Assembly (NCBI GenBank): GCA_019163335.1
Contig: JAFLKM010000045.1
Coordinates: 58,153-94,710, forward strand
Origin: Desulfobulbaceae bacterium
GTDB lineage: Bacteria > Desulfobacterota > Desulfobulbia > Desulfobulbales > Desulfocapsaceae
Direction of reading: 5' to 3'
DNA length: 36,558 bases
The position numbers were made by a program, and so were the translations under genes. This document shows positions 4,056-36,558 of the stretch, one piece after another (positions within the stretch are counted from its first letter, which is position 1; the number at the start of each line of letters is the position of its first letter). The notes beneath the pieces are model-generated. The model did not search any database, was not told the DNA's origin, and worked only from the letters and a program-made list of their open reading frames with translations.

Positions 4056-4550
4056 ATGAAAAAAGTGTTCGTAGTGACTGCATTGGTTGTTGGGTTAGGA
4101 TTTTTTAGTGCACAGCAGGCGTCTGCAAATTGGGGGATGAACGGAGGTGCCGGCATGGGGAGTGGAAACCTTCGAGGAGAACCATGTTATACCCAATTAG
4201 ATGCTGCAACGAAGGTCAAGGTGGACAAGTTTTACACTGAAACCACGGATCTCAGGAAACAAATTGTCATGAAAAACGCAGAAGAACATGCCGTTATGTC
4301 TTCAGATAATCCAGATCCCGTCAAGGCCGCCAAGCTGGCTGGGGAGATGTTTGACCTGAGAACAGCCATGCATGCAAAAGTTGAAGCAGCTGGTGTTACC
4401 GGGCTTTTTCAATGTGGTGATTGTGCCGGCCGTGATCATGCTATGGGCCCACACGACGGCGGTGGCCGAAAAGTAAGGAATGATAGGAATGGCAGGGGGG
4501 GCAGCCCAGCTGCAGCACCGGCAGCGCCAGCCCCAACGAATGCTAAATAA
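4056..4550 (+). CDS. periplasmic ZraP/Spy-like metal-associated protein
   Basis: A 164-aa exported protein with signal peptide MKKVFVVTALVVGLGFFSAQQASA (cleavage after ASA). The mature part resembles ZraP/CpxP-type periplasmic proteins: LDAATKVKVDKFYTETTDLRKQI, then a second helix with DPVKAAKLAGEMFDLRTAMHAKVEAAG (LTxxQ-like helical hairpin). A CxxC and several His follow (FQCGDCAGRDHAMGPHD), consistent with zinc or other metal binding. The C-terminus is a low-complexity Gly/Arg then Ala/Pro tail. Ribosome binding site AAGGA at 4044-4048. Followed by a strong intrinsic terminator. ZraP in enterobacteria is controlled by a sigma-54 activator (ZraR), but I see no sigma-54 promoter here. Confidence 0.75.
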   Translation: MKKVFVVTALVVGLGFFSAQQASANWGMNGGAGMGSGNLRGEPCYTQLDAATKVKVDKFYTETTDLRKQIVMKNAEEHAVMSSDNPDPVKAAKLAGEMFDLRTAMHAKVEAAGVTGLFQCGDCAGRDHAMGPHDGGGRKVRNDRNGRGGSPAAAPAAPAPTNAK

Positions 4551-10186: not shown

Positions 10187-11707
10187 CTATGGTTTCTCGA
10201 TATTGAGTTTTGTCATACGGGCTCGCAAGGTGCTGCGATCAAGGCCAAGGATCTCAGAGGCACTATTTTTTCCGCTCACCTTCCAATTACTCAGTTCAAG
10301 TACCCGCAGAATATACTCTTGCTCATAGGCTTCCAGGGTTTTCGGGCTTGAAGGCAAATTCTTGCACGATTTTTTAAGCTCATCGACCAGGCGCAACTTC
10401 GGTCCCGTCGAGTTGATCACCGCCCGCTCAAGGACATTTTCCAGTTCCCGAACATTCCCCGGCCACTGATACTCCTGTAACGCCGCCATCACGACCACCG
10501 GAATGATCTCAATGGTTTTGCCTAACCGTCTGGCAATTTTTTTGACGAAGGCATCAACGAGCAGTGGGATGTCACCCAGACGCTCCCGAAGCGGCGGCAT
10601 GGTGATCGGGAAAATATTTAAACGGTACCAGAGATCTTCACGGAATCGGCCTTTGCGGACTTCTTCCTCAAGATTACGGTTGGTGGCGGCCACAATCCGG
10701 ACATCAACTTTAATGGTATGAGAGCTGCCCAAGCGCTCAAACTCGCCTTCCTGAAGCACTCTTAAGAGTTTCGCCTGGAGTTCCAACGGTAATTCGCCGA
10801 TCTCATCCAAAAAAAGCGTCGCGCCGTTGGCGACCTCAAATCGTCCCAGATGCCTGGACAGAGAGCCGGTAAAGGCCCCTTTCTCATGGCCGAACAATTC
10901 GCTTTCGATAAGGGTAGCGGAAAGGGAAGCGCAATTTACCTTTACCAGTGTCCGATTTTTACGCAAACTTAAGTCGTGAATAGCCCGGGCGGCCAACTCT
11001 TTGCCTGTTCCGGTCTCACCAAGAATCAGAACGGTGGTTTCGCTGGCAGCAACTTGTTCAATTTTATAAAGCACTGATTTGAGGCTATCACTTTGACCGA
11101 TTATATTCTGATGATTGCCTTCCAGTTTAATTTCTTCTTGCAGATAGGCTCGTTCCGCTTCCAGTTGCTCTTTTAACTGGATCGTTTCGACAAGGGCGGC
11201 CTCCGCGATTTCCTTTCTTTTTTCAGCCTCATCCCTGGCGACGACAAGCTCCGCTGTGCGTTTGACCACCTCAAGCTCAAGCAAGGTGTTCTGCTCCCTA
11301 AGTGATTCTGCCATGCTCTTTAATGCCAGATGATTCTTGATCCTGGCCATGAGGATGGGCGGGCTGATCGGCTTGATGATGTAGTCAACGGCACCAAGCT
11401 CCAGTCCTTTCTGTTCATCTTCAATATCCGAGCTGGCAGTGAGAAAGATCACCGGAATGTTCATCGTCTCGGGGTTGCGTTTAAGTCGTCGGCATACCTC
11501 ATATCCATCCATGTCGGGCATCTTGATATCCAGCAGGATCAGGCTCGGCGGCGATTCCGCGGCCGCAATCTTCAGTGCTTTCTCGCCCCCGTTAGCTACC
11601 TTCACCTTGTACTCATCCCTGAGGAGGCTGCTCACCAGGAGCAGGTTGTCCGGGGTGTCGTCAACGACCAGGATCGTTGCCTTATCAGTGTGATCAATTT
11701 CATCCAT
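10187..11707 (-). CDS. sigma-54-dependent response regulator, REC-AAA+-Fis
   Basis: A 506-aa NtrC-class regulator. The receiver domain (10-125) has the acidic pair in VVDD, the phospho-acceptor Asp60 in LILLDIKMPDMDG, the conserved Thr in FLTASS and Lys in YIIKPI. A coiled-coil linker (135-205) leads to an AAA+ domain with GETGTGKE, GAFTGS and LFLDEIGELP, and a C-terminal Fis-type HTH matching its neighbour's almost residue for residue. It starts 2 bp after the stop of the six-PAS hybrid kinase, so the two are co-transcribed and very probably a phosphorelay pair: the kinase's Hpt domain could pass phosphate to Asp60. The expected output is activation of sigma-54 promoters. Confidence 0.95.
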   Translation of the reverse strand: MDEIDHTDKATILVVDDTPDNLLLVSSLLRDEYKVKVANGGEKALKIAAAESPPSLILLDIKMPDMDGYEVCRRLKRNPETMNIPVIFLTASSDIEDEQKGLELGAVDYIIKPISPPILMARIKNHLALKSMAESLREQNTLLELEVVKRTAELVVARDEAEKRKEIAEAALVETIQLKEQLEAERAYLQEEIKLEGNHQNIIGQSDSLKSVLYKIEQVAASETTVLILGETGTGKELAARAIHDLSLRKNRTLVKVNCASLSATLIESELFGHEKGAFTGSLSRHLGRFEVANGATLFLDEIGELPLELQAKLLRVLQEGEFERLGSSHTIKVDVRIVAATNRNLEEEVRKGRFREDLWYRLNIFPITMPPLRERLGDIPLLVDAFVKKIARRLGKTIEIIPVVVMAALQEYQWPGNVRELENVLERAVINSTGPKLRLVDELKKSCKNLPSSPKTLEAYEQEYILRVLELSNWKVSGKNSASEILGLDRSTLRARMTKLNIEKP

Positions 11708-11709: not shown

Positions 11710-14700
11710 TTATGTCAATGTCGCGGTGGCGGACCTCAGGGTTGTAAGTGCTGTCTCGAAGTCAAACATTCGAATAGCCTCATCAATTTTGCGCGCATGG
11801 TTGGGAAAGGCGGCATGCAATAACGCCGCGTTTGCCTCAAGCACATCAAGTGCCTCGGCGTCATCATCGGAAAGCTTTGCCGCCAGGGTGTCACAAACAG
11901 CCATAAGCTGTTCGGTGGGAACATTGATAACTGTCTTGATCGTATCAGCCGGCAGTTGCTGTTCTAATTGGTTGACTAGATCTTCGAGCAGCACCTTCAG
12001 CTGGTCAAGTCGGGCATCAATTTCTGCGTGCGCAAGACGTTCCTTTATCGCGGTTTCCAGTTGTTCCGCCATTTGCTGGAGGTCGGTGGCGCCAATGGTG
12101 CCGGAAACACTTTTCAGTGTGTGGGCCAGACGTTCCGCAGACTCCCAGAGATTATCCTCCATAGCCTTGCGGATTTCCACGGCAAATGATTTTTGCCCGG
12201 CTACAAACTTGCGCAGCAAAGAGAGGTAGAGTGGTTTCTTGCCAAGAACCCGGCGGAGACCATCGGCAATATCCAGCCTCGTGATACCTGTCGGCAGTTT
12301 GACGTCAAGCACAGCCTGGGTTTTTTTGATGGCCGCAGAAGCTATCGTTTGACGCGGCTTGACCCATTTCAGCAGTGCCTCCCACAACTTTTCCGGTTCT
12401 ATCGGCTTGGCCACATGATCATTCATGCCCGCCGCTATGCAGCGATCACGAGCATCCTGCGTGGCATTGGCAGTCATTGCCACCACTGGAAGATCCTTGA
12501 AACGTTTCTCCTTGCGAATCTCACGGGTTGCAGTCACGCCGTCCATCACCGGCATCTGCATATCCATGAGCACGATGTCGTAGTCGGCAACCCGGAGCTT
12601 ATCCAATGCAATCTGGCCATTCTCAGCCAGATCAATAGTGAAACCGGCATCGTTCAGCAGGGAGGTAGCAACTTCCTGGTTAAGATCATTGTCCTCCACC
12701 AGCAGGATACGAGAGCCCTTGAGAGAGGCAAGTTGCAGAAAAGTATCGGTCGGTGCATCGGCTGCTATGGGCATGCCATCATCAACACCTCCGAGAATTC
12801 GCATGACACTCTCAAAGAGAATCGAGCAGCTGACAGGCTTGATCAGCACATCCGTAATATCCGCTCCTGCCGCAGCTTTTAGTACTTCCTCACGACCAAA
12901 AGCGGTGACCATGATCAGGTGTGGGATACGACTGAGAGAAAGCTTCTTGAGCCGTCTGGCGGTCTCGTTGCCATCCATGCCATCCATTTTCCAGTCGAGA
13001 AAGACGATCTTATAGGGCGAACCTTGCGCATCGGCCTGTGTCACAGCATCAAGGGCAGCCTGGCCGGAATCAACCTGATCGATCTTGAAACCCAAATCGA
13101 TAAGCTGTTCGCCCAGCATCTGGCTGGCGTTTTTGTTATCATCGACTACAAGCGCATGCATTCCTTGCAGGTTCTTTGACAGTGAACGCTTGCGCGGTTG
13201 ATCGATCCCTTTGCCAAGACGAGCGGTAAACCAGAAGGTGCTTCCCTTACCCAATTCGCTGCTGACACCAACCTCACCGCCCATAAGTTCAGCCAGTTTT
13301 TTGGAAATGGCCAAGCCAAGACCGGTGCCGCCAAATTTACGGGTGATTGAGGAGTCGGCCTGGACAAATCGCTGAAACAACCGCCCCATCTCCTCTTCCG
13401 ACAGGCCAGATCCTGTGTCACGCACAGCGCAATACAGCAGCACATCATTGTCGGTCTGCTCCTGGATGCGGATGATGATATCGACCTCACCCTGTTCGGT
13501 GAACTTGACGGCATTGTTGCAGTAATTGATCAGAATCTGCCCCATCCGTAATGGATCACCGATCAGATATTGAGGTACGTCCTGGTCTATATTGAAGATT
13601 AACTCCAAACCCTTGGCAAAGGTCTTTTCGGCAATCAGGTTAGACACATTGTCGAGCATCTTTTCCAGTTCAAACTCGGTGGATTCAATGGTCAACTTGC
13701 CCACCTCGATTTTCGAAAAATCAAGGATATCGTTGATGATATTGAGTAGATGGCGGCTGGAACCCTTGATCTTTTTGATGTAGTCGCGCTGACGGGGTGT
13801 CAGCTCGGTCTTCATTACCAGATGAGACATGCCGATAATGGCGTTCATCGGGGTACGGATTTCGTGGCTCATATTGGAGAGAAAATCCGATTTGGCAAGA
13901 TTGGCCTGTTCCGCTACGGCTTTGGCTTTCTCCAGCTCGGTAGTCTTTTCCAGCAGCACCTGATCGAGAATCTGGCGTTCTGTCATATCCCTTGCCGCTG
14001 CGAAGACGCCCTGCAATCGCCTGTCCCGATCATAGAAGGTCGTCGCATTGAGAGACACCACCGTTTCCTTGCCATCCCTGGTGCAGGCGGTGAGCTCATA
14101 GTTGGTGACCTTTTTTTCGTTCAGCACGAGTTTGATGCCGGCCTCGGCCCGCTCCGGATTCGTGAAGTAATTTTTAAAAGGTGCGCCGATTAATTCATCC
14201 CTGGTGCAATCGGTGAGCGCCTCCATCTGTTTGTTGACATCGGTAATAATACCGGATGGATCGGTGGTCATCAGCGCGTCGATATTGGATTCAAACAGGG
14301 AACGGGTATAAAACTGATGATCCCGCAGACGCTGGCTGAGCTGTTTCTGGTCGGCCTCAATCTCCTTGCGGGCCGTGTTGTCCGTGCCGATAAGCAGATA
14401 GCCGATAATGGTGTCCTGCTCGTCACGCAGGGCCGTGACCGACACGACAGCCGGGAAGCGGCTGCCATCCTTGCGGATGTAGGTCAACTCGTAAATATCC
14501 TCGATACCGCGTGTAGCCTTGAATACCAAGGCCTCGAAACCGGGTGTAATCGGCGTTCCAAGCTCGACGCTGAGTGATTCGGCTCGGGCAATCACTTCCT
14601 GCGGATCAGAAATGTCAGCCGGGGTGATCTTGTTCATGACTTCGGCGGCCGTGTAGCCCAACATACGCTCGGCGCCAACATTAAAGATCTGGATGACGCC

Positions 14701-16527
14701 TTTGGCATCGGTGGCAATACTCGAAAAATTAGCGCTGTTAAAAATCGCACTCTGCAAAGCTCCAGCCTTAAGCAGTGCATCTTCCGCCTGCTTGCGGGCG
14801 GTGTTGTCGGTGCCGATAAGCAGATATCCAATGATGGTATTTTGCTCGTCACGCAGGGCCGTGACCGACACGACAGCCGGGAAGCGGCTGCCATCCTTGC
14901 GGATGTAGGTCAACTCGTAAATATCCTCGATACCGCGTGTAGCCTTGAATACCAAGGCCTCGAAACCGGGTGTAATCGGCGTTCCAAGCTCGACGCTGAG
15001 TGATTCGGCTCGGGCAATCACTTCCTGCGGATCAGAAATGTCAGCCGGGGTGATCTTGTTCATGACTTCGGCGGCCGTGTAGCCCAACATACGCTCGGCG
15101 CCAACATTAAAGATCTGGATGACGCCTTTGGCATCCGTGGCAATACTCGAAAAATTGGCGCTGTTAAAGATCGCGTCTTGCAGGGCACCCGCTTTGAAAA
15201 GGGCCTCTTCAGCGTTCTTGCGCACGGTGATGTCCCGCAAAATACCGGTGAAATATCGCTGGCCACCAAGCCACATTTCGCTCACCGTGATCTCCAGGGG
15301 AAAGGTGCTGCCATCCTTGCGTCTGCCCACAACCTCGCGTCCAAGACCGAGCGCACGGGCCTCTTCACTGGCGCTGTAATACTCAAGTGAACCATTATGA
15401 TGGCCTCGATTCAGCTCGGGGATCAGCAGGCTGAAGGGTTGTTCGATGATCTCAGCCGAATCATAGCCAAACATTCGCTCAGCGGCGGGATTCACCGTCC
15501 CGACGATGCCGCCATGGGCATGAAGGGTGACAATCCCATCCTCCACAGTGTTAAGAATTGTCTGGATCAGGGCAATGCTGTCTCGTAAGGCCTGTTCTGA
15601 TGCATAATCCTGGGTGACATCACGGAAGACCAGCACCGCGCCGATTACCTGGGAATCACGGTCACGAATCGGCGCGCAACTATCGGCAATATCACGCTCA
15701 CTTCCATCTCGGGCAATAAGCACGGTATGGTTGGCCAGGCCTTGAATCGTGCCCTTCGCCAAGGTCTCCATTACCGGGATCGTCGCTGGGAGTCGGGTCT
15801 CTTTATTAATGATATGGAAAATTTCTTCCACCGGAAGACCGATGGCTTGCGCCTGAGTCCACCCTGTGAGCTTTTCGGCAAGGGGATTCAGGAGGGTCAC
15901 CCGCGCATTTGCGTCGGTGGCAATCACCGCATCGCCGATGGAGTTGAGCGTCACGGCAAGCTTTTCCTCGCTCTCGCGCAGGGTAATATTGGCCTGCTCG
16001 AGTTGCCTGTTTGTCTCCTCCTGAATTACGAGCAAGTGTTGCCGCTCGGCTTCGGCCTGTTTGCGGGCGGAGTTGTCGGTGCCGATCAGCAGATACCCGA
16101 TGATGGCGTTTTTTTTGTCGCGCAGGGCCGTGACTGAAACGACTGCTGGGAAGCGACTGCCGTCTTTGCGGATCTTGGTTAGCTCGTAGATGTCTTCGAT
16201 ACCGCGTGAAGCCTTAAACACTAACGCCTCAAAGCCGGGTGCAATCGGGGTTCCGAACTCAACGCTGAGTTCTCTGGCGCGCTCAATCAGTTCCTGGGGG
16301 TCGGAGAGGACGGCGGGCGTGATTGTATTGATCACCTCGGCTGCCGTGTAGCCCAACATGCACTCGGCGCCGACGTTAAAGATCTGGATGACACCCTTGG
16401 CATCGGTGGCGATACTGGAGAAGTTGGCGCTGTTGAAAATCGCGTTCTGCAAGGCTCCGGTTTTGAGCAATGTCGTTTCCGCATGCTTGCGCACGGTATC
16501 GGCGGAAAGTTTTTCGATGTCATTCAT
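11710..16527 (-). CDS. hybrid sensor histidine kinase: six PAS, HisKA, HATPase, two REC, Hpt
   Basis: A soluble kinase of about 1605 aa (an in-frame TTG at 16599 would add 24 residues; neither start has a good ribosome binding site). Six PAS/PAC modules occur in order, of which the first, fourth and fifth are homologous (GALQxAIFNSANFSSIATD). The fourth and fifth are nearly identical with a 142-aa (426-nt) period. Then come HisKA with SNMSHEIRTPMNAI (His near residue 888), HATPase with DTGSGLSEEE and GTGLGLAISKKL, REC1 (VVDDNK..VFLDWKMDG), REC2 (LVEDND..VLMDMQMPVMDG) and Hpt (LAHTLKSVSGTIGA). It has no transmembrane segment, so the signal is cytoplasmic. This BarA/ArcB-like layout ends in an Hpt domain that can phosphorylate a separate receiver, and the REC-sigma-54 regulator gene follows directly. 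Confidence 0.93.
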   Translation of the reverse strand: MNDIEKLSADTVRKHAETTLLKTGALQNAIFNSANFSSIATDAKGVIQIFNVGAECMLGYTAAEVINTITPAVLSDPQELIERARELSVEFGTPIAPGFEALVFKASRGIEDIYELTKIRKDGSRFPAVVSVTALRDKKNAIIGYLLIGTDNSARKQAEAERQHLLVIQEETNRQLEQANITLRESEEKLAVTLNSIGDAVIATDANARVTLLNPLAEKLTGWTQAQAIGLPVEEIFHIINKETRLPATIPVMETLAKGTIQGLANHTVLIARDGSERDIADSCAPIRDRDSQVIGAVLVFRDVTQDYASEQALRDSIALIQTILNTVEDGIVTLHAHGGIVGTVNPAAERMFGYDSAEIIEQPFSLLIPELNRGHHNGSLEYYSASEEARALGLGREVVGRRKDGSTFPLEITVSEMWLGGQRYFTGILRDITVRKNAEEALFKAGALQDAIFNSANFSSIATDAKGVIQIFNVGAERMLGYTAAEVMNKITPADISDPQEVIARAESLSVELGTPITPGFEALVFKATRGIEDIYELTYIRKDGSRFPAVVSVTALRDEQNTIIGYLLIGTDNTARKQAEDALLKAGALQSAIFNSANFSSIATDAKGVIQIFNVGAERMLGYTAAEVMNKITPADISDPQEVIARAESLSVELGTPITPGFEALVFKATRGIEDIYELTYIRKDGSRFPAVVSVTALRDEQDTIIGYLLIGTDNTARKEIEADQKQLSQRLRDHQFYTRSLFESNIDALMTTDPSGIITDVNKQMEALTDCTRDELIGAPFKNYFTNPERAEAGIKLVLNEKKVTNYELTACTRDGKETVVSLNATTFYDRDRRLQGVFAAARDMTERQILDQVLLEKTTELEKAKAVAEQANLAKSDFLSNMSHEIRTPMNAIIGMSHLVMKTELTPRQRDYIKKIKGSSRHLLNIINDILDFSKIEVGKLTIESTEFELEKMLDNVSNLIAEKTFAKGLELIFNIDQDVPQYLIGDPLRMGQILINYCNNAVKFTEQGEVDIIIRIQEQTDNDVLLYCAVRDTGSGLSEEEMGRLFQRFVQADSSITRKFGGTGLGLAISKKLAELMGGEVGVSSELGKGSTFWFTARLGKGIDQPRKRSLSKNLQGMHALVVDDNKNASQMLGEQLIDLGFKIDQVDSGQAALDAVTQADAQGSPYKIVFLDWKMDGMDGNETARRLKKLSLSRIPHLIMVTAFGREEVLKAAAGADITDVLIKPVSCSILFESVMRILGGVDDGMPIAADAPTDTFLQLASLKGSRILLVEDNDLNQEVATSLLNDAGFTIDLAENGQIALDKLRVADYDIVLMDMQMPVMDGVTATREIRKEKRFKDLPVVAMTANATQDARDRCIAAGMNDHVAKPIEPEKLWEALLKWVKPRQTIASAAIKKTQAVLDVKLPTGITRLDIADGLRRVLGKKPLYLSLLRKFVAGQKSFAVEIRKAMEDNLWESAERLAHTLKSVSGTIGATDLQQMAEQLETAIKERLAHAEIDARLDQLKVLLEDLVNQLEQQLPADTIKTVINVPTEQLMAVCDTLAAKLSDDDAEALDVLEANAALLHAAFPNHARKIDEAIRMFDFETALTTLRSATATLT
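14390..15241 (-). repeat. internal tandem duplication of a PAS module (426-bp period)
   Basis: Within the six-PAS kinase, positions 14391 onward match 14817 onward almost base for base for more than 300 bp (for example from the CGTCACGCAGGGCCGTGACC stretch to GCCAACATTAAAGATCTGGA). Silent as well as coding positions are conserved, so this is a recent duplication or ongoing gene conversion, not just shared ancestry. The first PAS of the protein is a more diverged third copy (16050-16470). Confidence 0.9.
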
Positions 16528-16748
16528 AGGGGGTAGGTTTGTACAGTATTGTGGAAATTGTTTAAGGAGCCTGAAAAATTCAGTGAGAGGGCTGGACAAT
16601 CGTGAGGTTGCAGTGGAGGGGGTACCTGCACATCATACAAGGTGTCTTCCCAACGATCAACAGCGAACGTCGTAATGTCAAGGATTAATGAAGATACTCA
16701 CGTTTCACTCTCAAGTGTTAAATTGTATTCCTCAATGGGTGTTATGCT

Positions 16749-17583: not shown

Positions 17584-20500
17584 TCAACTCGTCATCGCTG
17601 GACGTCCCATTCGGACCTGAACCTGATGGATCATCAGTCCTTGTTCCAGCGGAATGACACCATCGTGCATCCGCTGTCCGTCCATTTCCACCCAGGCGAC
17701 ACCGTGCCGGCAGGCGTCCGGGTTCTCAACTGCAATAGTATAGATCGTCTCTCCGTGGCGATACCGGAGGCTGAAACCAGGCCAGTTTGAAGGGATAACC
17801 GGATCAATCCGCATCTGTTCACCACGGATCTGCAGACCCAGAATCTCTTCCAGCCAGGCCCGATACATCCACGCTGCCGAGCCGGTATACCAGGACCAGC
17901 CGCCCTGGCCTACGTGGCCGGGCAGGCGGTAGACATCAGCCGCCACAACGTAAGGTTCGACCCCGTAATGCCAGACCGCCTCGGCATCGCGGGCGTGCTC
18001 GATGGGATTAAGCATGCGCAGCAGTTGCACCGCCCGCTCGCCGTCTTTTTTGCGGGCCATGGCCATTGCCATCCACAGGGCGGCGTGGGTGTACTGGCCG
18101 CCGTTTTCCCGCACTCCCGGTGGATATCCCTTGATGTAGCCGGGTGAGGGGATAGCTTGTTCAAAAGGTGGAGCAAACAGCAAAGCCAGGCCCTCATCGG
18201 GCCGGACCAACTGGCTCCAGGCCGATTCCAGAGCCTGATCAGCGCGCCCAGGATCAGCGGCTCCGGAGAGCCAGGCCCAGGATTGCGGCAGACTATCGAT
18301 CCTCGCCTCCTGGTTGGCCGCAGAGCCAAGCGGGGTGCCGTCATCAAAGGTCCCGCGCAGATACCATTCACCGTCCCAGCCGGCCTTTTCGACTCGCTGG
18401 ATCAGGGCCTGCCGGTCTGCCTGAAAGCTCTGAACAAGCTCAGGTTGCTGGAGGTGATTTGCTAGTTCGCCCATTCCCTGCAGGGCATCGCAAAGGAACC
18501 AGCCGAGCCAGACGCTCTCCCCTTTTCCCTTTGCACCCACCAGGTTCATCCCATCGTTCCAATCCCCGGTCCCGATCAGGGGCAGGCCATGGGGACCGAT
18601 GGTCAGGCCGCGGTTGATTGCACGCCTACAGTGTTCAAAGAGGGTGGCACGTTCCAAGGTTACTTCCGGGGTGGAGAATTGTTCGTGTTGATCATCACTC
18701 AGAGTGGGGGCGTTAAGAAATGGCACCTCTGCGTTCAGGATTGCAACATCGCCGGTGATCCGGACGTAATGGGCGACCACATAGGGCAACCAGAGGAGAT
18801 CATCGCTGATACGTGAACGGATTCCGGCGCCGACAGGGGGATGCCACCAGTGCTGGACATCCCCCTCCTTGAACTGCCGGCTGGCGCACAGAAGAATATG
18901 TTCCCGGGCCAGTTCGGGATTGGCATAGAGGATTGCCATAACATCTTGTAATTGATCCCGAAAGCCGAAAGCGCCACCGGACTGGTAAAAGCCGGAGCGT
19001 CCCCAGATGCGGCAACTTAACGACTGATACTGCAGCCAGCGGTTAAGCATGAGATCGACAGCCAGTTCCGGAGTCTTCACCTCAATCGTGCCGAGCAGCT
19101 CATCCCACCAGGCCCTGGTCTGGTCAAAGGCGGTTTCAAAGGCGAGATCCTGACGGTAGCTGCGCACCCACTCCCGCGCCTGATCCGCAGATTCGGCCTG
19201 ACCGAGCATAAAGATGATATCCCGTTGTTCATGGGGCGCCATTTCAATGGTCACGCGCAGGACGGCGCAGGGATCAAGCCCGGCGCCAATTCGAGGTGAC
19301 AGCCGGGTCAGTTCCATGGCAACGGGACTTGCCAGCGATCGATTCCGGCCGATAAAGGCGGTGCGGTCGCCGCTGTATGCCTCGGCCTCGGGGGTGATGG
19401 CCACAAAGGCGACCCGCTCCGGGTACTCAGGGTGATAATGGTTTTGGGCCAGCAGGGTTTTGAACTCGTCATCCCAATGGGTCAGGATGTGCATTCTCGA
19501 GGTCTCGCGGCTTTCTCCCAGGGTCAATTCCACATAATAGGTGACCGAGAGTTGCCGCCTTCGGGAGGAACCATTGGTGAGACGCAGACGCTGCAGTTTG
19601 ATCGGCGTCCCCCCGTCTTTATCGACTGGTACGAAGACGGTCAATTCCTGTTCAATACCGTTACTGTTATGTTCAAAGACCGTATACCCCGCTCCGTGCC
19701 GGGCTCGATAGGCGCTATCTTCCCGGATCGGACTTGCCGTCGGTGACCAATAAATCCCGCTTTCCTCATCCCGGATATATAATGCCTCGGAAGCCGGGTC
19801 CAGCACCGGGTCGTTCGACCAGCCGGTCAGGCGGTTGCGCTGACTGTTGCCGTACCAGGTGAATCCTGATCCGGTTTCGCTGATCAAGGTGCCGAAGGTG
19901 GGACCGGCGATGACGTTCACCCAGGGGGCCGGGGTACTGGTGCCAGGACCGAGATAGATTGCATATTCCCGGCCGCCTGGTGTGAAACCTCCAAGACTGT
20001 TGAAATAGTCGAGCTCCATAAAGGGCAAGGGCGCCGATGGTTCGCGTGCGCTGCGTTTTCCAGTGAACCGATTCAATTTTTCAGGCGCTTCCACCGGCAG
20101 GCCCAGTTGCTGGGGAAGGGTACCGCGAGCGGCAACCAGCACTACGCTTGCTGACGCCTTCAGGAGTTTGAGATCATCCTCCGGAATGTGTGCCACGTTT
20201 TTAAGGAATATCCCCCCAGTCTGATTCACTGCGGCTGAGAGGGCATGGTTCTGAATCATTTGCACCAGTCGTTCCTGGAGCGGTCGCTCATAACTTTTCG
20301 CCTCTTCGTTCAGAATAACAAGATCCGTGGAAAAGCCATGCATCCGCCAAAAGGTATGGGCCTGCAGTATCTGGCGGACCAGGCTGATCTCCCGCACCTC
20401 GCCGATGGTAATCAGGATCATGGGCAGGTCGCCGGAAATGGCGTAAGGCCACAATCCCGCCTGGCCCTTGCGGTTTTCTTCCAGGCGTTCGGCCGGTGCG

Positions 20501-23500
20501 CGCAACAGCTTGTTCGGGAAAAGAAGGTGGCTTGCCAGTTGCTGGAAACGACGGGCCTCATCGGCCTTGATCCGCAGCATTTGCAGTTGTTGCTGGGCCG
20601 AGTGCCAGGCAAAATCCATGGCTCGGTCGGTGGCATGATGGTCGCTGTACTTGGCGATAAGCTGCAGCACCTGCTCACGGCTGGCTGCGGCGGCGATCAC
20701 CAGAGAAACCCGGACGCGCTGACCGGGTTTCAGGGTGAGTTTCTGTCTGGAACTGAAAATTGGATCCAGGACAAACCCCTGGGTGTTGCCGAGTTCCTGC
20801 ACCGCTCCCATGGGATGGGCAAGGGTTCGGCCGCGGCCGATGAATCGGGCCCGGTCGGTTTCAAACTGCCAGTCCTGTTCCTGCGAGCCCTCATCTTCTG
20901 TCTGTTCCAGGATCAGGCCATGGCCAACATACAGCGGTGGTTCGTTTTCACTTCGTGGACGTCGATGGGCGATGAGTGCCTGAATTTCGGGCAGGGCTTC
21001 GGTCTGGATAAACAGTTTATTAAACGCCGGATGCTGACGGTCGGCGTTGTGGGGCGACATCGAGAGCTCCACATAGCTGGTCAAATTGAGTTGGCGGGTG
21101 CGCGAGGATCGATTGATCAGGGTGATCCGGCGTACCTCGACATCGTCTTCCGGCGAGACAATCACCTCGGTTTCGGTGTGGATCTTATGATCAATACGAT
21201 GAAAAACCGCCCGGTCCAGGGTGAAGTCCGCTGAATAGCCGGTGATCGGGCCGCCGACCGGATGTGGAGTGACAGACCAGAGCCGCTCCCCGGCCACTTC
21301 ATGGATGTAGCAGAAGGTGCCCATTGCGTCACAGGTCGAATCCGCCCGCCAGCGGGTCAGTTCCTGGCCGTCCCACTGGCTGTAGCCGCCGCCGCTGTTG
21401 GTGAGCATCAACCCATATCGTCCGTTGGAGAGTAGCAGGGTCACCGGGATGGTGGTGTCGGGGGTGAGACAGGTGCTGCTCATTGGGGCGACCGAATCGT
21501 CACCCAACAACGGCGGTTCGATCTGTCGGGTCGAGATCAGGTGCAGGGGCGGCAGATTCGGGATGCGTTCCTGGAGCAGGGCCTCAAAAGCTCGTACTCG
21601 TGGGTCGTTGTGGAAACGGCGCGGGAAAGGATTGCCATGGAGAAAATTGGTCAGGGCCAGAAAGGCCATGCCCTGATGATGGGCCATGTAGGCCTCGATG
21701 ACCACTCCGCGTTTGCGCCCCTCGTTGCTGCTGTCGCGCTGTGGTTGCCGACTGAAATCCATGGCTTCGAAATAGCCGTATTCGCCCAGCAGACCCAGTC
21801 CGGCAAGGCGTTTGAGATTTTCCACAGTATCGTTGGGGGCAAGATTCAGAGCCAGCATCGTGGCATAGGGCGCCACCACCAGTTGTTCTTCCAGCCCACG
21901 CTTCAGGCCTAGCGCCGGCACGCCAAATGCCTTGTACTGGTAGGTTTTATTGAGGTCAAGATCGGCATAGGCGGACTCGGAAATGCCCCAGGGCACGCGG
22001 TGGGTGCGGCCATAGGCTATCTGGACGGTCACCGCCTCCCGTGCCGATTTATCCAGCAACGAATTGCCATAGGAATGCTGAAACAGCAGCGGCATCAGGT
22101 ATTCAAACATGGTCCCGGTCCAGCTCAAGAGCACCCGTTGCCGGCCAATGGCACCATAGGGGCGGCTCATGGAGAACCAGTGCTCCAGGGGAACATCGCC
22201 CCGGGCAATGGCCACGAAGCTGCCGAGCCGGGCCTCACTGGCCAGAAGGTCGTAACTGGACTGGTCGAGACAGGCGGTGGACACATTATAGCCGATGGAG
22301 AACAGTTTGCGTTTGGGGGCATAGAGAAACTGCATGTTCATTCCGGCCGAGAGGGTCTGGACGTCATGGGTCAGTTGCTCGATCATTCCCAGGGTTTCGC
22401 CGGCCAGCCATCGAGCTTCTGCAAAGGCGGCCAGGAGCCTTTCGATCCAGACAATCAGGGTTGCTTCGATGGGAGGTGAGGATTCCCGAAGGGCAGCAAG
22501 AATGTGGATCGACTCGATCTCGTCCTGTGCCAGCGACTCAAGTGTAGGCGACTGCGTAAGGTCATGGTGAATGGCGTGTTGGGCCAAGCTTCCCAGCGGT
22601 TCCAGCTCCTCTTCAGTTTTTTCCGCAAGGATTTCTATCCAGCTGAGATAACGATGGCTGTTTTCTGTCCAGGCCGCCATCTGTTGCGCCAACTCGCCCA
22701 CCCAGGGCATGCCGCCCGCCACCCCAACCAGCTCGGAAACCGGAGTCTGAAGGCGCTGTTGCAAACGAAGCCGCTCGATGATCTCCAGTGGCGGTGTATT
22801 ACAATCAAGAATCAACTGGTCGAGCAGGGGGTGACAAAAGTTGGCAACACCCTGAACGGTTACGGCTTGTTTTAAGATCAAGCCGGTATCTGCAAGACCA
22901 GTGAAAGCTCGGCCATCGAGGACAGGTTGCTGCGCCAGTTCGCTTAAGCCCTGCTCCAGGGCCCAGAGGGCGCCAAGAAGGTTGCCGCTGTCCACGGTGG
23001 AGACGTAGCGGGGTTCAAGCGGTACCAAAGTTTTGATGTCGTACCAGTTGAGCAGATGGCCCTGGTGGCGATGCAGACGGCTGATGGTCGCCATGGTGTG
23101 GCCAAGGGTTTCGATGGTCTGGTTGATCGTCTGATAGCCGCAATCATAGGCACCCAGGGTGCTGGTCATCCAGAGGCCGATGTTGGTCGGGCTGGTACGC
23201 ATGGCGAGACAGCGATTGTGAGCCACCTGATAATTATCGGGCGGAAGCCAGGAAGTGTTTTCACCAACAAAGGTGGAAAAATAGCGCCAGGTCCGCCGGG
23301 CTATTTGTCTAAGGAAAAGACGGTCATCATCCGGCAGCGGATATTCCTGTAATGACACCACAGGACGAAGATTGAGTACCCAGCCGAGGAGTGGAGCGAT
23401 CAGCCAAAGCGAGAGCCAGGGCAGAGCGTGGAGCAGGCTCTGGGGCAGGAAGATCCAGACCGTCGCGGCGGCTGTCAGGCTGAAAAGACTGCTCAGAGCC

Positions 23501-26500
23501 AGGCCCGCGACAAAGAATGACTGCTGCCGGGACCCGCGCCGACGAGAAACCGGAGAAGTCCATTCCAGCAGTCCATGGTGAGAAAAAACCTGTCGATACC
23601 AGACCCGAAGGATTGCATCCAGGCTCACCGCTGCCTGGTGCGGCAGCAGGGCAGCATCAGTGGCCGCCCGTAACAGATCATGAAAAACTTTTGACAGTTC
23701 AAAATATTTTAAGCCCTTGCGGGTGGTGGCCATGGTCAGGGGCTGGGCCAGAGGATGAAAAAGGAGCTGTACTCCCACCACCAACGAGGCCAGACCACCG
23801 ATTTTCGACGAAATCAGCCAGGCTGCCAGCAGCAGGATCAGGCTGGTAACGGGCAGCAGGCTGCGGCGCAGGTTGTCGAGGATCTTCCACCGGTTGAGCA
23901 GCGAGAGTGGATTGCCCTCATGACCAGGTTCACCCTTGCCGGTTGGGACGTGGGTGAAGATCCAGGCCGCGATCTGCCAGTCGCCACGAATCCAGCGATG
24001 GGAACGTTTGCTGTAACTCTGGTAGCCTTGCGGAAAGTCATCGAAGAGTTCAATGTCGCTGGCCAGTCCAACCCGGATGTAGGCCCCTTCAATCAGGTCA
24101 TGGCTTAAAATCCGTTCTTCCGGAAAGCGTCCAGACAGCACCCGGCTGAAGGTGCGTACGTCATAAATCCCCTTGCCGTGATAGGAGCCTTCTCCGCTTA
24201 AATCCTGATAGACATCGGATACAGCCTGGGAGTAGGGATCGATGCCCACCGCATCGGCAAAGAGCCGGCTGAAGATCGAGACGCTGGTACTTGCCAGGGT
24301 TGGGCTGACGCGTGGCTGGATCAGGGTGTAACCGGCGGTGACCCGGCCTTTTGCATCAAAACGGGGCTGATTGAGGGGGTGGGCCAGGGTTTCGATCATC
24401 CTTCGGGCGGTGGCGTGCGGCAATTGGGTGTCGCTGTCAAGGGTGATGACAAAACGGACGTCCGCCAACCGATCCGGATCACCAACCTCCACCAGCCGGG
24501 GAGCCAGCAACGGGCGAGTGCCGTCGATCAGGCGGTTGAGTTCTTCCAGTTTTCCCCGCTTTCGTTCCCAACCGATGAAATGCTGTTCGGACTCGCTCCA
24601 GACACGTTCACGATGAAAGAGAAAAAAACGGTCGCCGCCATGGCGCGCATTCAATACCTCAATGGATTCGCGGGCGATCCGGACTAAATCGATGTCTTCC
24701 GGGCAATTGAGGGTGTCGGCATCAGTATAGTCTGAAAACAGGCCAAAGAGCAGATTGGCTTCTTTGTTGGCGAGAAAACGGATTTCCAGCTTCTCTGCCT
24801 CGCCCAGAATTGTTTCCTCATTCACCAGCATCATCGGCACCACGACAAGGGTGAGGTAGGCATCGGGAATTCCGGATTCCTCAAAATCCATCTTGGCGAG
24901 CGGTCGGGTCGGTAGAAAGCGCGTGATCACGTAATTGACGATGTCGATTGCCAACTGGCTGACCGGGATCAACAGCAGAAAACCCAAACCAAAGCCAAGA
25001 AGAGGCGACGAAGAGATGTGGGAAAGGGTGATGAGCATCAACAGCAGCAAGGCGGTAATGGAACCGATGCTCAGGAGATAGATACTGGTATGATGGTGGA
25101 AAATCCATTGGAGCAAACGGTAGGGCAGGGTTTCGCGGCAGGCAAGCAGCCGGGCCAGCGACGCTCTTCGTTCTCCGACCAGCCAGGCGCCGACATGATC
25201 CAGATGTTCTTCAATACTTGATGCGCGGCCGGTGGCATCGGTGCAAAGCTTGATCACTTGTTCTGCGACCTCTGTTTCCGTCTGTGCCGATGCCTTGGCG
25301 AGTTCTTCAATGGCCCGGCGGCAACGGTCGCGGGTGGCAAAATCCATGCGGGGATAGATTCCGGCTGGATCGAGGCGCAATAACTGCTCGACGCGGCTGG
25401 TCTGCTCGAATACCTGGCGCCAATCCAGCAGGCCAAGCTGGCGCAGGCTGGTGAAGGCGTTGCCGCAGGACAACTGTTCCCTGGTCTGGCGGTTTTGTTC
25501 CTGCAGATTGAGGTCGTAAATGGGGATTTTGAGGGTGCGTTCCAGCCAGCTCTGCACCGGGCTGAGGGCCGCCGCCTCATCATAGAGCAGGCCGACCAGC
25601 TGAACCCCGAAATAGGGGCTGGGATGGGGTTCAGCCTGGGAAAGTTCGGCCAGGATGACGAACAACTGGTTGGGCTCGCGACGATTGGCGGCAATAAGCC
25701 GATTGGCCCAGAAGTCGGCCAGTTGTCGTTCACGCAAATCAGACAGGGCGATTAATGCCAGGCTCTGGATACTCTCGATCAGTGCCAGCCGCATCATCTG
25801 GGGGAGTGCCCAGAGCTCGCCGCTGGTCAGGGTTCGGATTGATTGATAGGTCTCGAGAAAGGCCAGGATATTCTCACGATCCAGGCGCATCTCGGTATGG
25901 GCGACGAGATCCTTGGCCAGACCGTAGATGCAGGGCAGTCCGTGGTAGGGATCAGTGGAGAGAATAGGCAGTTGCCGGTAAAAATGACGAGGCAGGTTGA
26001 GCAGGATATCGCGGATGTTGCTTTCCAGGACATATTCATTGTCGAGGATCCAGTCAGCCGCCGCTGTGGTTTTCTGTTCAAGATCGCTGGCTGCAGTAAG
26101 ATCGGCACAGACCTGGCGGATCCATTGGCGGGATTTTTTAAGGCGATTCAGCAACTCGGTGGTGTGTTGCGGTCTGGAGTCCAAGCGCTGTTCACTGGCA
26201 TGACGATGAGCATGCTCCAGAATCTGGGCCGGGGTGAGTTTGATCGCGGTTGCCCGTTCTTGGGCGCGTCGATCAAGTTTGGGATAGAGGACGAACAACG
26301 CCGGAGGCGTATCCCCGATTTCACGGAGCAGGATCACCGGACGTTGTAAAGACGCAACCGGTGCCCGCAGGATAAGGACATACTCCCCGGGCAGGAGCCA
26401 GCGCCCATGTTCTCGGATATCGCCGGCATCAGCCGTTTGCAGAAAGAATCGAAACCAGAAGAAGACCACCATCATGCCGATGGCAGCCCCGGATAATTGC

Positions 26501-26772
26501 ACCCACAAGGAAGTGGAAGGACTCCAGAGCGGAAACAATTTCAGCCCGTACAAGAGGAAAGGAGCTATTCCGGCAATCCCTCCGAACAGGAAGGCCGCCA
26601 AGGTTATCTTCAGGGGAAGACGTTGGGTAAAGAGATTAACAAGGTGAACAAATCCGGCGGAATCTTTGTGTGCCAGGGCGGTACGGCTGAACCCATGCTG
26701 ACTGAGCTTCCGCAGCGCTTTCCGGGCCTGCTCCTGTTGTGCGAAATAACCAATAAGAATGCCAACGCCCAA
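17584..26772 (-). CDS. ndvB: cyclic beta-1,2-glucan synthase (NdvB/ChvB type) with YflT-like N-terminus
   Basis: A 3062-aa membrane enzyme, somewhat longer than Brucella Cgs or Sinorhizobium NdvB (about 2830). It starts at TTG 26772 with AAAGGA seven bases upstream. Residues 1-45 (ILIGYFAQQEQARKALRKL..GFSRTALAHKD) resemble a YflT stress domain. Two transmembrane helices (about 54-120) follow. The glycosyltransferase (GT84) region holds DSDTQLP near 778 and SHRWIRGDWQ, with more membrane helices around 580 and 1020-1130. A glucoamylase-type domain (GTMFEYLMPLLF near 1551) and two GH94-type beta-sandwich regions precede the GH94 catalytic domain with TGDWNDGMN near 2736 (catalytic Asp). These families initiate, extend and cyclise periplasmic glucans used in osmoadaptation. 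No separate transporter gene is seen. The leader has a hairpin and a palindrome. Confidence 0.93.
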   Translation of the reverse strand: MGVGILIGYFAQQEQARKALRKLSQHGFSRTALAHKDSAGFVHLVNLFTQRLPLKITLAAFLFGGIAGIAPFLLYGLKLFPLWSPSTSLWVQLSGAAIGMMVVFFWFRFFLQTADAGDIREHGRWLLPGEYVLILRAPVASLQRPVILLREIGDTPPALFVLYPKLDRRAQERATAIKLTPAQILEHAHRHASEQRLDSRPQHTTELLNRLKKSRQWIRQVCADLTAASDLEQKTTAAADWILDNEYVLESNIRDILLNLPRHFYRQLPILSTDPYHGLPCIYGLAKDLVAHTEMRLDRENILAFLETYQSIRTLTSGELWALPQMMRLALIESIQSLALIALSDLRERQLADFWANRLIAANRREPNQLFVILAELSQAEPHPSPYFGVQLVGLLYDEAAALSPVQSWLERTLKIPIYDLNLQEQNRQTREQLSCGNAFTSLRQLGLLDWRQVFEQTSRVEQLLRLDPAGIYPRMDFATRDRCRRAIEELAKASAQTETEVAEQVIKLCTDATGRASSIEEHLDHVGAWLVGERRASLARLLACRETLPYRLLQWIFHHHTSIYLLSIGSITALLLLMLITLSHISSSPLLGFGLGFLLLIPVSQLAIDIVNYVITRFLPTRPLAKMDFEESGIPDAYLTLVVVPMMLVNEETILGEAEKLEIRFLANKEANLLFGLFSDYTDADTLNCPEDIDLVRIARESIEVLNARHGGDRFFLFHRERVWSESEQHFIGWERKRGKLEELNRLIDGTRPLLAPRLVEVGDPDRLADVRFVITLDSDTQLPHATARRMIETLAHPLNQPRFDAKGRVTAGYTLIQPRVSPTLASTSVSIFSRLFADAVGIDPYSQAVSDVYQDLSGEGSYHGKGIYDVRTFSRVLSGRFPEERILSHDLIEGAYIRVGLASDIELFDDFPQGYQSYSKRSHRWIRGDWQIAAWIFTHVPTGKGEPGHEGNPLSLLNRWKILDNLRRSLLPVTSLILLLAAWLISSKIGGLASLVVGVQLLFHPLAQPLTMATTRKGLKYFELSKVFHDLLRAATDAALLPHQAAVSLDAILRVWYRQVFSHHGLLEWTSPVSRRRGSRQQSFFVAGLALSSLFSLTAAATVWIFLPQSLLHALPWLSLWLIAPLLGWVLNLRPVVSLQEYPLPDDDRLFLRQIARRTWRYFSTFVGENTSWLPPDNYQVAHNRCLAMRTSPTNIGLWMTSTLGAYDCGYQTINQTIETLGHTMATISRLHRHQGHLLNWYDIKTLVPLEPRYVSTVDSGNLLGALWALEQGLSELAQQPVLDGRAFTGLADTGLILKQAVTVQGVANFCHPLLDQLILDCNTPPLEIIERLRLQQRLQTPVSELVGVAGGMPWVGELAQQMAAWTENSHRYLSWIEILAEKTEEELEPLGSLAQHAIHHDLTQSPTLESLAQDEIESIHILAALRESSPPIEATLIVWIERLLAAFAEARWLAGETLGMIEQLTHDVQTLSAGMNMQFLYAPKRKLFSIGYNVSTACLDQSSYDLLASEARLGSFVAIARGDVPLEHWFSMSRPYGAIGRQRVLLSWTGTMFEYLMPLLFQHSYGNSLLDKSAREAVTVQIAYGRTHRVPWGISESAYADLDLNKTYQYKAFGVPALGLKRGLEEQLVVAPYATMLALNLAPNDTVENLKRLAGLGLLGEYGYFEAMDFSRQPQRDSSNEGRKRGVVIEAYMAHHQGMAFLALTNFLHGNPFPRRFHNDPRVRAFEALLQERIPNLPPLHLISTRQIEPPLLGDDSVAPMSSTCLTPDTTIPVTLLLSNGRYGLMLTNSGGGYSQWDGQELTRWRADSTCDAMGTFCYIHEVAGERLWSVTPHPVGGPITGYSADFTLDRAVFHRIDHKIHTETEVIVSPEDDVEVRRITLINRSSRTRQLNLTSYVELSMSPHNADRQHPAFNKLFIQTEALPEIQALIAHRRPRSENEPPLYVGHGLILEQTEDEGSQEQDWQFETDRARFIGRGRTLAHPMGAVQELGNTQGFVLDPIFSSRQKLTLKPGQRVRVSLVIAAAASREQVLQLIAKYSDHHATDRAMDFAWHSAQQQLQMLRIKADEARRFQQLASHLLFPNKLLRAPAERLEENRKGQAGLWPYAISGDLPMILITIGEVREISLVRQILQAHTFWRMHGFSTDLVILNEEAKSYERPLQERLVQMIQNHALSAAVNQTGGIFLKNVAHIPEDDLKLLKASASVVLVAARGTLPQQLGLPVEAPEKLNRFTGKRSAREPSAPLPFMELDYFNSLGGFTPGGREYAIYLGPGTSTPAPWVNVIAGPTFGTLISETGSGFTWYGNSQRNRLTGWSNDPVLDPASEALYIRDEESGIYWSPTASPIREDSAYRARHGAGYTVFEHNSNGIEQELTVFVPVDKDGGTPIKLQRLRLTNGSSRRRQLSVTYYVELTLGESRETSRMHILTHWDDEFKTLLAQNHYHPEYPERVAFVAITPEAEAYSGDRTAFIGRNRSLASPVAMELTRLSPRIGAGLDPCAVLRVTIEMAPHEQRDIIFMLGQAESADQAREWVRSYRQDLAFETAFDQTRAWWDELLGTIEVKTPELAVDLMLNRWLQYQSLSCRIWGRSGFYQSGGAFGFRDQLQDVMAILYANPELAREHILLCASRQFKEGDVQHWWHPPVGAGIRSRISDDLLWLPYVVAHYVRITGDVAILNAEVPFLNAPTLSDDQHEQFSTPEVTLERATLFEHCRRAINRGLTIGPHGLPLIGTGDWNDGMNLVGAKGKGESVWLGWFLCDALQGMGELANHLQQPELVQSFQADRQALIQRVEKAGWDGEWYLRGTFDDGTPLGSAANQEARIDSLPQSWAWLSGAADPGRADQALESAWSQLVRPDEGLALLFAPPFEQAIPSPGYIKGYPPGVRENGGQYTHAALWMAMAMARKKDGERAVQLLRMLNPIEHARDAEAVWHYGVEPYVVAADVYRLPGHVGQGGWSWYTGSAAWMYRAWLEEILGLQIRGEQMRIDPVIPSNWPGFSLRYRHGETIYTIAVENPDACRHGVAWVEMDGQRMHDGVIPLEQGLMIHQVQVRMGRPAMTS

Positions 26773-34625: not shown

Positions 34626-35408
34626 CTATTCAATGGTCATATTGTTGAACACGCTCTTCACACCATGCACGTCAACGACGATTTTCGAAGCGAGATCTCT
34701 CTCAGCTGCATTTTTAGCCTTCCCGCCCAGTTTGACCATGCCATCTTTCGTATCGACAGTGGTATGGAGAGCACTGGTGGAACGATGACTCAGCAATGTC
34801 GTCTTCACCAGGGCCGTAATCGATGCGTCATCAATCAATTCGCCCATGGTATCCACTTTCTGACCGAATGTTGTGTCTGGTTTTTCGCCGGCAGATGCCA
34901 CTGTCATCTCATTTATAACGTCCTTAACGCCTTCTACGTCCTTGGCATATTCAGTCGACAGATCCTTCTGGGCAGTATTGATTGCTTCACCCCGTAACGT
35001 GACCGTGCCGTTTTTTGCAAAAATATCGGTTTGAGTGCCGCTCACATTGCGATGAAATAATAAGGTTGATTTCACCCTCGCAGCTACCCAGGCATCTGAA
35101 TTGGCCGCAGGATTATCTCCTTTATCTACAAGATTGTTACTCACGCTTTTCACTCCCGGTAATCCCGCAACAGTTTCACTGGCCAATGCTTTATGGTCTC
35201 CTTCAGAAACAGTCCCGGATAAGGTGACAAGACCATCTTCGGACTGGACTTTTATGTCATCACCTTTGAGGTAGGTTCTAAAAACATAGGATTGTTGAGC
35301 GGAGGTTTCTATACGATTGTCTGTCTCTGATGCAAAGAGCGGGGCATTGCATAAAAATAATGAAGCCACAGTTCCTATCAGTGCTAAACAGTACGTTTTT
35401 TTGTGCAT
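34626..35408 (-). CDS. periplasmic triple-BON-domain protein, paralog of 2444-3268
   Basis: A 260-aa exported protein with signal peptide MHKKTYCLALIGTVASLFLCNAPLFA and three BON modules in the same order and spacing as the plus-strand copy. Long stretches such as SYVFRTYLKGDDIKVQS and DDASITALVKTTLLSHRSTS are the same. It ends at the third module (NNMTIE), lacking the Lys-rich tail of its paralog. It is the first gene behind the sigma-54 promoter at 35562-35577, with a leader of about 145 bases. The DUF883 and yqjE/yqjK genes follow and may be on the same transcript. Expected role: envelope protection under osmotic or membrane stress. Confidence 0.92.
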   Translation of the reverse strand: MHKKTYCLALIGTVASLFLCNAPLFASETDNRIETSAQQSYVFRTYLKGDDIKVQSEDGLVTLSGTVSEGDHKALASETVAGLPGVKSVSNNLVDKGDNPAANSDAWVAARVKSTLLFHRNVSGTQTDIFAKNGTVTLRGEAINTAQKDLSTEYAKDVEGVKDVINEMTVASAGEKPDTTFGQKVDTMGELIDDASITALVKTTLLSHRSTSALHTTVDTKDGMVKLGGKAKNAAERDLASKIVVDVHGVKSVFNNMTIE

Positions 35409-35561
35409 GATTCATAAACTCCTTCTGTCAAATTGAATATTTCTAATACGGTATCTCTGGATACATGCCATTGCGGTCTTGTGAGTTTTCGGTCCTTCGT
35501 AGGTATGACGACATTTACATATCAAAGAGAAGTTGTGACGCCATTCCTACATTCTTATAAG

Positions 35562-35577
35562 AGCAAACTGTATGCCA
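35562..35577 (-). promoter_or_regulatory. sigma-54 promoter of the BON gene at 34626-35408
   Basis: Read on the minus strand: TGGCATACAGTTTGCT, with GG and GC 10 bases apart. It is followed by CTTATAAGAA, close to the CTTACTATAAGGA that follows the promoter at 1624, so even the early transcribed region is similar. Transcription should start near 35551. Confidence 0.82.
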
Positions 35578-35676
35578 TGTTCCTGATGTTCGTGTTAACA
35601 CCACTCATCTTGCCGATATGTTGAAGAAAAAATGAGAAATCATAGTTCCGGAATTAAGCATTAAGGCCGCTTGTTA

Positions 35677-35709
35677 ATGGTTATATATGGCCATAGGTTG
35701 CATGTAACC
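35677..35709 (-). promoter_or_regulatory. tandem-dyad activator site for the 35562 sigma-54 promoter
   Basis: On the minus strand: GGTTACATGCAACC (35709-35696), three bases, then GGCCATATATAACC (35692-35679), centres 17 bp apart. The 33-bp block is 27/33 identical to the plus-strand block at 35999-36031 and ends 99 bp before the sigma-54 core. Confidence 0.78.
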
Positions 35710-35998
35710 ATTCCAAGGCGAATTCCAGACGAACCCGTCTGCCTGGGTAGGGGATTGTGATGTGTAGAAAATTTCAGGTGAGAGGCTTTTCCTGCTTACC
35801 CGTCCAGTGACCCAAAACAATTTCATTCATCTCTTGATTTCAAACAGACTTGAAACACAGGCAACCATGTTCAATGACTCGATTGAATGGAACCCATCTG
35901 AATTATTCCTTTTATTCCATCTCATCTCTACCATGAGTGCTTCCTCGTAAGGATCGTATCGACCCTTAAAGAAGTGTCCGTTCTTTTGCATTAGCTCT

Positions 35999-36031
35999 GG
36001 TTGGATATAACCAATGGCCATATGTAACCAT
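35999..36031 (+). promoter_or_regulatory. tandem-dyad activator site for the 36129 sigma-54 promoter
   Basis: GGTTGGATATAACC (35999-36012), three bases, then GGCCATATGTAACC (36016-36029); centres 17 bp apart and 97 bp between block and promoter. Its last 18 bases are the inverted copy (17/18) of 35677-35694. Confidence 0.78.
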
Positions 36032-36128
36032 ATTTTACGTTCAGGAATGTCCAGGGTACAATTTAAATATTTTATAATTATTAAATAAAAACAATATTAT
36101 ACGCTATTTTTGAGGATGGTTTAAACTC

Positions 36129-36144
36129 TGGCATAAACATTGCT
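36129..36144 (+). promoter_or_regulatory. sigma-54 promoter of the BON lipoprotein gene
   Basis: TGGCATAAACATTGCT, with GG at 36130-36131 and GC at 36142-36143, 10 bases apart. One base differs from the core at 1624-1639. The predicted leader to the ATG at 36250 is about 95 bases. Confidence 0.83.
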
Positions 36145-36249
36145 TTAATGATGACCAGTAGTGAAGAGTGACAGGCAAGTATTACAGGAATCCCTGATAT
36201 ATTGAGTATCAAGGGGTATTGAGTTTATTTTAATTGGGAGGATTGCACC

Positions 36250-36558
36250 ATGAGACCACAGAAATTTTTTTCGGCTTTATCATTTATCGTTTTGTTGACC
36301 TTTTTTGTAGGATGCGCTTCGACAACGAAGCATGAGGGCACAGGTGAATATGTTGACGATACCGTTATCACCACAAAGGTTAAGGCGATGATCATGGATG
36401 AAGCTTCACTGAAATCGGCTGAGATTAACGTAGAAACGTTTAAGGGTGTTGTTCAATTAAGCGGTTTTGTGAATTCTAAAGCGGATATCAATAAAGCGAC
36501 CGAAGTTGCCCGTAAGGTCAAAGGGGTAACTTCAGTTAAAAATGACATGCGATTGAAG
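36250..36558 (+). CDS. BON-domain lipoprotein, cut by the window end
   Basis: The first 103 codons of a gene continuing past the window. Ribosome binding site GGGAGG at 36236-36241. A lipoprotein signal (MRPQKFFSALSFIVLLTFFVGC, lipid Cys at 22) is followed by STTKHEGTGEYVDDTVITTKVKAMI and a BON module (INVETFKGVVQLSGFVNSKADINKATEVARKVKGVTSVKNDM). This is the pattern of the BON lipoproteins related to OsmY and YraP (DolP), which sit at the outer membrane and guard envelope integrity. It is directly behind a sigma-54 promoter and divergent from the triple-BON gene. Confidence 0.88.
   Translation, partial: MRPQKFFSALSFIVLLTFFVGCASTTKHEGTGEYVDDTVITTKVKAMIMDEASLKSAEINVETFKGVVQLSGFVNSKADINKATEVARKVKGVTSVKNDMRLK

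Follow-up and report, generated by a model that had tools for sequence, protein, structure and literature searches.

Tandem-dyad blocks at a near-constant distance from sigma-54 promoters: a candidate stress regulon around two BON-domain genes

Divergent BON promoters and further sites in the window

Towards the right end of the window (by which we mean the whole analysed stretch of 36,558 nucleotides), two genes for BON-domain proteins face away from each other. The left gene (34626-35408, minus strand) encodes a protein of 260 aa, in which Pfam PF04972 is matched in three stretches and whose likeness to OsmY remains below the cut-off, while the right gene (36250-36558, plus strand), truncated by the end of both window and contig, encodes one PF04972 domain behind a start that reads, from its letters, as lipoprotein-like. 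The intergenic region (35409-36249) contains two outward-facing sigma-54 cores of the -24/-12 type, TGGCATACAGTTTGCT (minus strand, 35577 to 35562), which would serve the left gene, and TGGCATAAACATTGCT (plus strand, 36129-36144), which would serve the right one. Upstream of each core lies a putative tandem-dyad enhancer block of 33 bp (35678-35710 on the minus strand for the left promoter and 35998-36030 on the plus strand for the right one). Each block consists of two dyads with a centre spacing of 17 bp, and the two blocks are identical at 27 of 33 positions.

A preliminary description of this region had claimed the two cores, the paired blocks with their dyad geometry, an AT-rich non-coding setting and BON genes on both sides, and we recovered all of these; the GC content is 38% in the intergenic region vs 51% across the window. 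The block-to-core distances of 99 and 97 bp given there were each one short, but the regularity of about 100 bp stands: measured from the 33-bp blocks, the gaps are 100 bp on the left and 98 bp on the right, and measured from a 31-bp motif they are 101 and 99 bp. An RNA element was also considered and dropped, as no Rfam family reached its gathering score within the window.

A motif scan added a third tandem-dyad block, absent from the preliminary description, at 1492-1522 (plus strand), with a sigma-54 core, TGGCATAAAGATTGCT (1624-1639, plus strand), after a gap of 101 bp. Downstream of this site lie the gene of a YflT-domain protein (1807-2322, plus strand; PF11181) and that of another three-BON-domain protein (2399-3268, plus strand; PF04972 in three stretches). 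All three cores in the window match TGGCAYNNNNNTTGCW (GG-N10-GC, -24/-12) with 0 mismatches. Since the sites lie near both ends of the window, the presumably regulated promoters flank the candidate activators located between them. The genome as a whole (3.2 Mb in 103 contigs) holds four sites, i.e., the three in the window and one on contig C2, which has a weaker core and an outer-membrane efflux gene downstream. A looser pattern gave one extra match with three mismatches (C3:122678), and the reversed control likewise gave one.

Recurrence, spacing and downstream genes of the block

A search with the block in strict form gave 8 of 97 relatives, each belonging to the genus of 17 genomes; the 80 relatives outside the genus lacked it, and the reversed pattern was absent throughout. 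When up to three mismatches were allowed, it was present in 12 of the 17 genus genomes (reversed pattern 0), in 33 of 93 family genomes with a slightly different pattern (reversed pattern 0) and in 38 of the 257 genomes searched across the order, five of them beyond the family; the reversed pattern occurred in 0 of 257. Moreover, block and core were found again before unrelated genes in many genomes, which bears out the expected conservation among relatives. In 80 named loci around related activators (1.26 Mb), the block (up to three mismatches) was seen in two, L122 (Desulfobacteraceae bacterium CSMAG_891) and L124 (Desulfosarcina sp.), neither of which has a core within 200 bp.

The distance between block and core was derived as a rule in the genus and then tried on other genera and on a second family, with the core rate within the same DNA providing the expected counts and with identical rows dropped from the lists of block-core pairs. 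At 41 of the 43 genus block places, which come from the scan with three mismatches allowed, a sigma-54 core lies 90-112 bp downstream (0.44 expected), and never on both sides; the two places without one are G005:C82:26369 and G005:C180:10131. Two extra pairs from a looser scan, outside the 43 places (L036 and window 1492), bring the genus pairs to 43, and their gaps measure 101 bp in 25 cases, 100 bp in nine and 99 bp in three, with one each at 95, 97, 98, 103, 108 and 109 bp. In the other genera of the family, where the regions fetched represent most, though not all, block places, a core lies at 90-112 bp from 44 of the 64 blocks (0.75 expected) and is missing from that range for the other 20; five additional blocks from G126 and G128 gave a core in three cases. 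In the second family, a search at 85-115 bp found cores at 95-102 bp for 15 of 18 blocks (0.36 expected). Hence, the enrichment of blocks upstream of sigma-54 cores recurs in all three sets, and the view that the geometry goes beyond chance is upheld; a chance likeness of the window's two blocks is ruled out by core counts far above expectation together with the reversed-pattern control in 257 genomes. Outlying gaps fall at 87, 89-91 and 108-112 bp, with none at 92-94 or 104-107 bp, and as some of these cores may be chance matches, the distribution is only suggestive of helical phasing.

Individual loci depart from the layout seen in the window. At L208 and L233, a single block lies between two divergent cores (gaps of 97/100 and 100/100 bp), an arrangement that is an alternative to the two-block layout, and at L230 (about 2074-2121) three dyads in a row arise from the overlap of two blocks set 17 bp apart, with one core after a gap of 99 bp. 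G200 has a single block (G200:C88, L279), which matches in its letters a block of G055:C131 (L217), and the starts of the downstream proteins match too, though G200 and G055 belong to different families; a contaminated metagenome bin may be the explanation.

The genes behind the blocks, chosen by a longest-ORF rule, encode one- and three-BON proteins, YflT proteins and small lipoprotein-like proteins. A Pfam scan of 29 of the downstream proteins also identified two superoxide dismutases, a DsrD-family protein, a TPS-type outer-membrane transporter, an outer-membrane efflux protein, a glyoxalase-family protein, a PRC-barrel protein, an AI-2E-family transporter, a sodium/proton exchanger, a holin-X-type membrane protein, an MCRA-family protein, a response regulator and a giant GH94 protein, and eight of the 29 had no Pfam family at 0.001. 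Other products, recognised from their letters alone, we take to be CsbD-like and UspA-like. Judged by these families, the target set looks like stress protection in a sense wider than the envelope. The earlier term, envelope-stress genes, thus looks too narrow, given that oxidative and general stress are suggested as well.

Two of these families call for additional remarks. The DsrD-family protein identified by Pfam (L208:4105-4344) follows a block and core, and so do proteins at L221, L224 and L229 that appear DsrD-like from their first letters. The window itself encodes a GH94 protein of 3062 aa (17584-26772), whose relative in G123 (3079 aa, L237:3433-12669) sits behind a weaker block and core; no block-core site was found before the GH94 gene of the window.

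Candidate activators and the spacer element

Between the promoter sites, three consecutive genes on the minus strand encode, according to Pfam, a multi-PAS hybrid histidine kinase with two receivers and an Hpt domain (11710-16599), a receiver-input sigma-54 activator directly downstream of it (10187-11707; Response_reg, Sigma54_activat, HTH_8) and a PAS-input sigma-54 activator (8370-9890; PAS, Sigma54_activat, HTH_8). As far as can be judged from gene order, the kinase is the probable signal source of the receiver-input activator. Both activators carry the AAA+ domain PF00158 and the Fis-type helix-turn-helix PF02954, and they are 87% identical over residues 127-506, with one difference in the last 48 residues. 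Because their DNA-binding halves are nearly identical, we propose that both would read the same sites. The genome also encodes rpoN (PF04552, E 1.1e-61), on which transcription from the cores would depend.

With respect to the NCBIfam equivalogs ZraR, NtrC, NifA, PspF and NorR, both activators stay below the cut-off among the best 25 models for each, and a named identity was dropped on this basis. The closest named matches are Desulfobacteraceae and Desulfosarcina records, hence our label 'Desulfosarcina-like'. In both proteins the loop reads GAFTGS, a variant of the GAFTGA usual in sigma-54 activators. When the shared C-terminal halves were placed in a tree, the PAS-input protein of this genome joined its own receiver-input paralogue (support 100/94), apart from the other PAS-input proteins, a grouping that suggests gene conversion or a domain swap. 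One PAS-input activator gene elsewhere (G015:C25:11092-12600, L075) has one in-frame TAA stop.

An activator match at E 1e-120 is present in 34 of 93 family genomes, and blocks occur in 27 of these 34 vs 6 of the 59 others (Fisher p 1.6e-11, uncorrected for relatedness). Outside the genus, six genomes have a full-length receiver-type relative (76-80%), and all six have blocks. In genus g29 of the second family, the activator (71-76%) is found in all four block-bearing genomes and in none of the 12 block-free genomes tested (of 19) at E 1e-115. Additionally, in the single-contig genomes G020, G051 and G058, none of the six blocks is more than 23 kb away from the activator gene. By co-occurrence and closeness, the two activators of the window are therefore the best candidates for the block site.

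The correspondence has exceptions in both directions, and these bear on the possibility that the blocks are sigma-54 enhancers of another activator and merely travel with this neighbourhood. Blocks without an activator match at E 1e-120 were seen in six family genomes (G001, G004, G012, G056, G116 and G124), the sharpest exception being G004 (95% complete), with three blocks, each with a core, and a best activator match of 53% identity; G056 has one block, without a core. Candidates for such a role would not be scarce, as ten family genomes examined contain 6 to 37 activator matches at E 1e-50. However, across 538 kb comprising the window and the block regions, some of which had been cut to take in the activator gene, all 20 activator-type ORFs belong to the window's activator family, and both the joint presence of block and window-type activator in the second family and the closeness of the two in single-contig genomes further argue against a different activator, which we regard as unlikely. 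In the opposite direction, seven genomes have an activator match without a block (G023, G027, G028, G041, G115, G121 and G129). The recognition helix is near-constant across the compared block-bearing genomes and altered in block-free G115; in block-free G028 it is nearly unaltered. The g58 genome G200 carries its block and core without an activator, and the matches in three block-free genomes of g58 are weaker, at 53-65%.

The spacer between block and core was compared in core-aligned promoters, freed of identical rows and of those at least 60% identical upstream of the core, which left 19 of 37 genus promoters (gaps of 99-101 bp) and 35 of 39 from other genera. In both sets, conservation within the spacer is clearest in a T-tract at -53 to -48 followed by an A-tract at -43 to -36. 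An IHF-like word (at most one mismatch) was found in only 16 of 43 genus promoters and 15 of 56 others, against shuffled means of 7.7 and 6.5. It starts exactly 41 bp before the core in 11 of 17 genus matches and 36-41 bp before it in 13 of 20 matches outside the genus; at L058, with its gap of 109 bp, it starts at 49, which places the extra bases on the core side. The alignment of the other promoters puts the element at 35613-35630 (minus strand, 36-53 bp before the core) in the left BON promoter and at 36076-36093 (plus strand) in the right one, and in both it is A/T-rich and weakly matched. The left spacer contains no IHF-like word at up to one mismatch, and the right spacer has a single such word, in reverse orientation, with its start 65 bp ahead of the core. 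Taken over the whole set of promoters, it is likely that IHF acts here.

The same alignment is relevant to the idea that block and core form a dispersed, recently copied promoter module, with a spacing that reflects copying rather than function. Near-copies do exist in the genus, where about half of the aligned promoters were removed by the identity filter. In other genera, however, nearly all promoters are non-redundant, with block, tract and core conserved and the remaining spacer not, and the downstream genes belong to unrelated families, so that we give this idea very little credence. Equally improbable is that the blocks are operators of a repressor or other DNA-binding protein and the cores serve an unrelated activator: dyads serve as sites for many regulators, and the minority of blocks without a recognisable core (20 of 64) would fit, but most blocks lie upstream of a sigma-54 core at a nearly set distance, which, like the link to a sigma-54 activator, speaks against it.

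A proposed sigma-54 stress regulon

We consider it very probable that the blocks are enhancers of a hitherto uncharacterised sigma-54 stress regulon run by the activator pair of the window, with an IHF-type bend as a probable component. Enrichment, conservation and co-occurrence with the activator all favour what the preliminary description had proposed, namely an uncharacterised enhancer-binding-protein site. In the mechanism that we envisage, NtrC-type activator dimers would sit next to each other on the two dyads of GGTYAYATNTRACC-NNN-GGYYAAATRTRACC. The DNA would be folded by an A/T-rich, IHF-like bend beginning some 60 bp past the block and 41 bp short of the core, and the AAA+ ring of the activator would thereby be brought to the sigma-54 polymerase at TGGCAY-N5-TTGC, about 100 bp downstream. 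One paralogue would probably receive a phosphoryl signal from the adjacent hybrid kinase, and the other would sense through its PAS domain. The regulon would extend over Desulfosarcina-like bacteria and some of their relatives.

The system falls within a known category, that of sigma-54 regulons that have activators of their own. Divergent sigma-54 promoters and palindromic activator sites are also features of the orp operons of Desulfovibrio vulgaris (DVU2106, sigma-54, IHF), whose promoters need IHF sites located between activator sites and cores, at -42/-43 and -79 from the start (PMC3897727). Unlike here, the orp genes concern septum positioning, and the sections of that paper considered by us describe neither a stress regulon of many promoters nor a tandem block of the present motif (PMC3897727). 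In the same species, a sulfate reducer, sigma-54 activators are assigned to stress genes (DVU3305 in general stress, DVU1419 and DVU3381 in envelope stress), and the paralogues DVU0539 and DVU0946 bind one site; these regulons, which resemble ours in the type of regulator and target, mostly comprise one to four operons, unlike the present one (PMC4641369, PMC3333781).

The combination of a sigma-54 activator with envelope protection is also reminiscent of enterobacterial ZraSR/ZraP, and the window has a weakly ZraP-like gene (4056-4550; 34.7 bits vs a cut-off of 200), but unlike ZraR, the activators of the window reach 333 and 283 bits vs a cut-off of 760. For the BON proteins of the window the best match is the OsmY model, below its cut-off. 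OsmY-type BON proteins are under general stress control; in E. coli, osmY is an RpoS gene and not a sigma-54 one. Two features of the proposed regulon appear less usual, a block-to-core distance that hardly varies in either of two families and a pair of activators whose inputs are swapped. Neither motif nor regulon was found described in the literature searched, where the dyad words were also absent; subscription papers, figures and supplements lay outside the scope of that search.

More tentatively, we speculate that this is a sigma-54-based general stress response of Desulfobacterales-type bacteria, in which one enhancer word and two activators whose inputs have been swapped, one at the end of a phosphorelay and one with a PAS sensor, would govern movable genes for envelope, oxidative, osmotic and metabolic protection, performing an RpoS-type job. 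In this view the enhancer would function only at distances of about 90, 100 or 111 bp, near-fixed and in helical phase. Such a restriction, if true, contrasts with the distance-tolerant sigma-54 enhancers of textbooks, and the near-constancy of the spacing in two families offers a natural test of the rigidity of sigma-54 promoters. In one survey of 1,628 organisms, sigma-54 activators were most numerous in the class Desulfobacteria (PMC12316311). Our analysis supplies a testable regulon, with a motif, a spacing, candidate activators and candidate targets, and this may be a route by which these bacteria coordinate stress protection.
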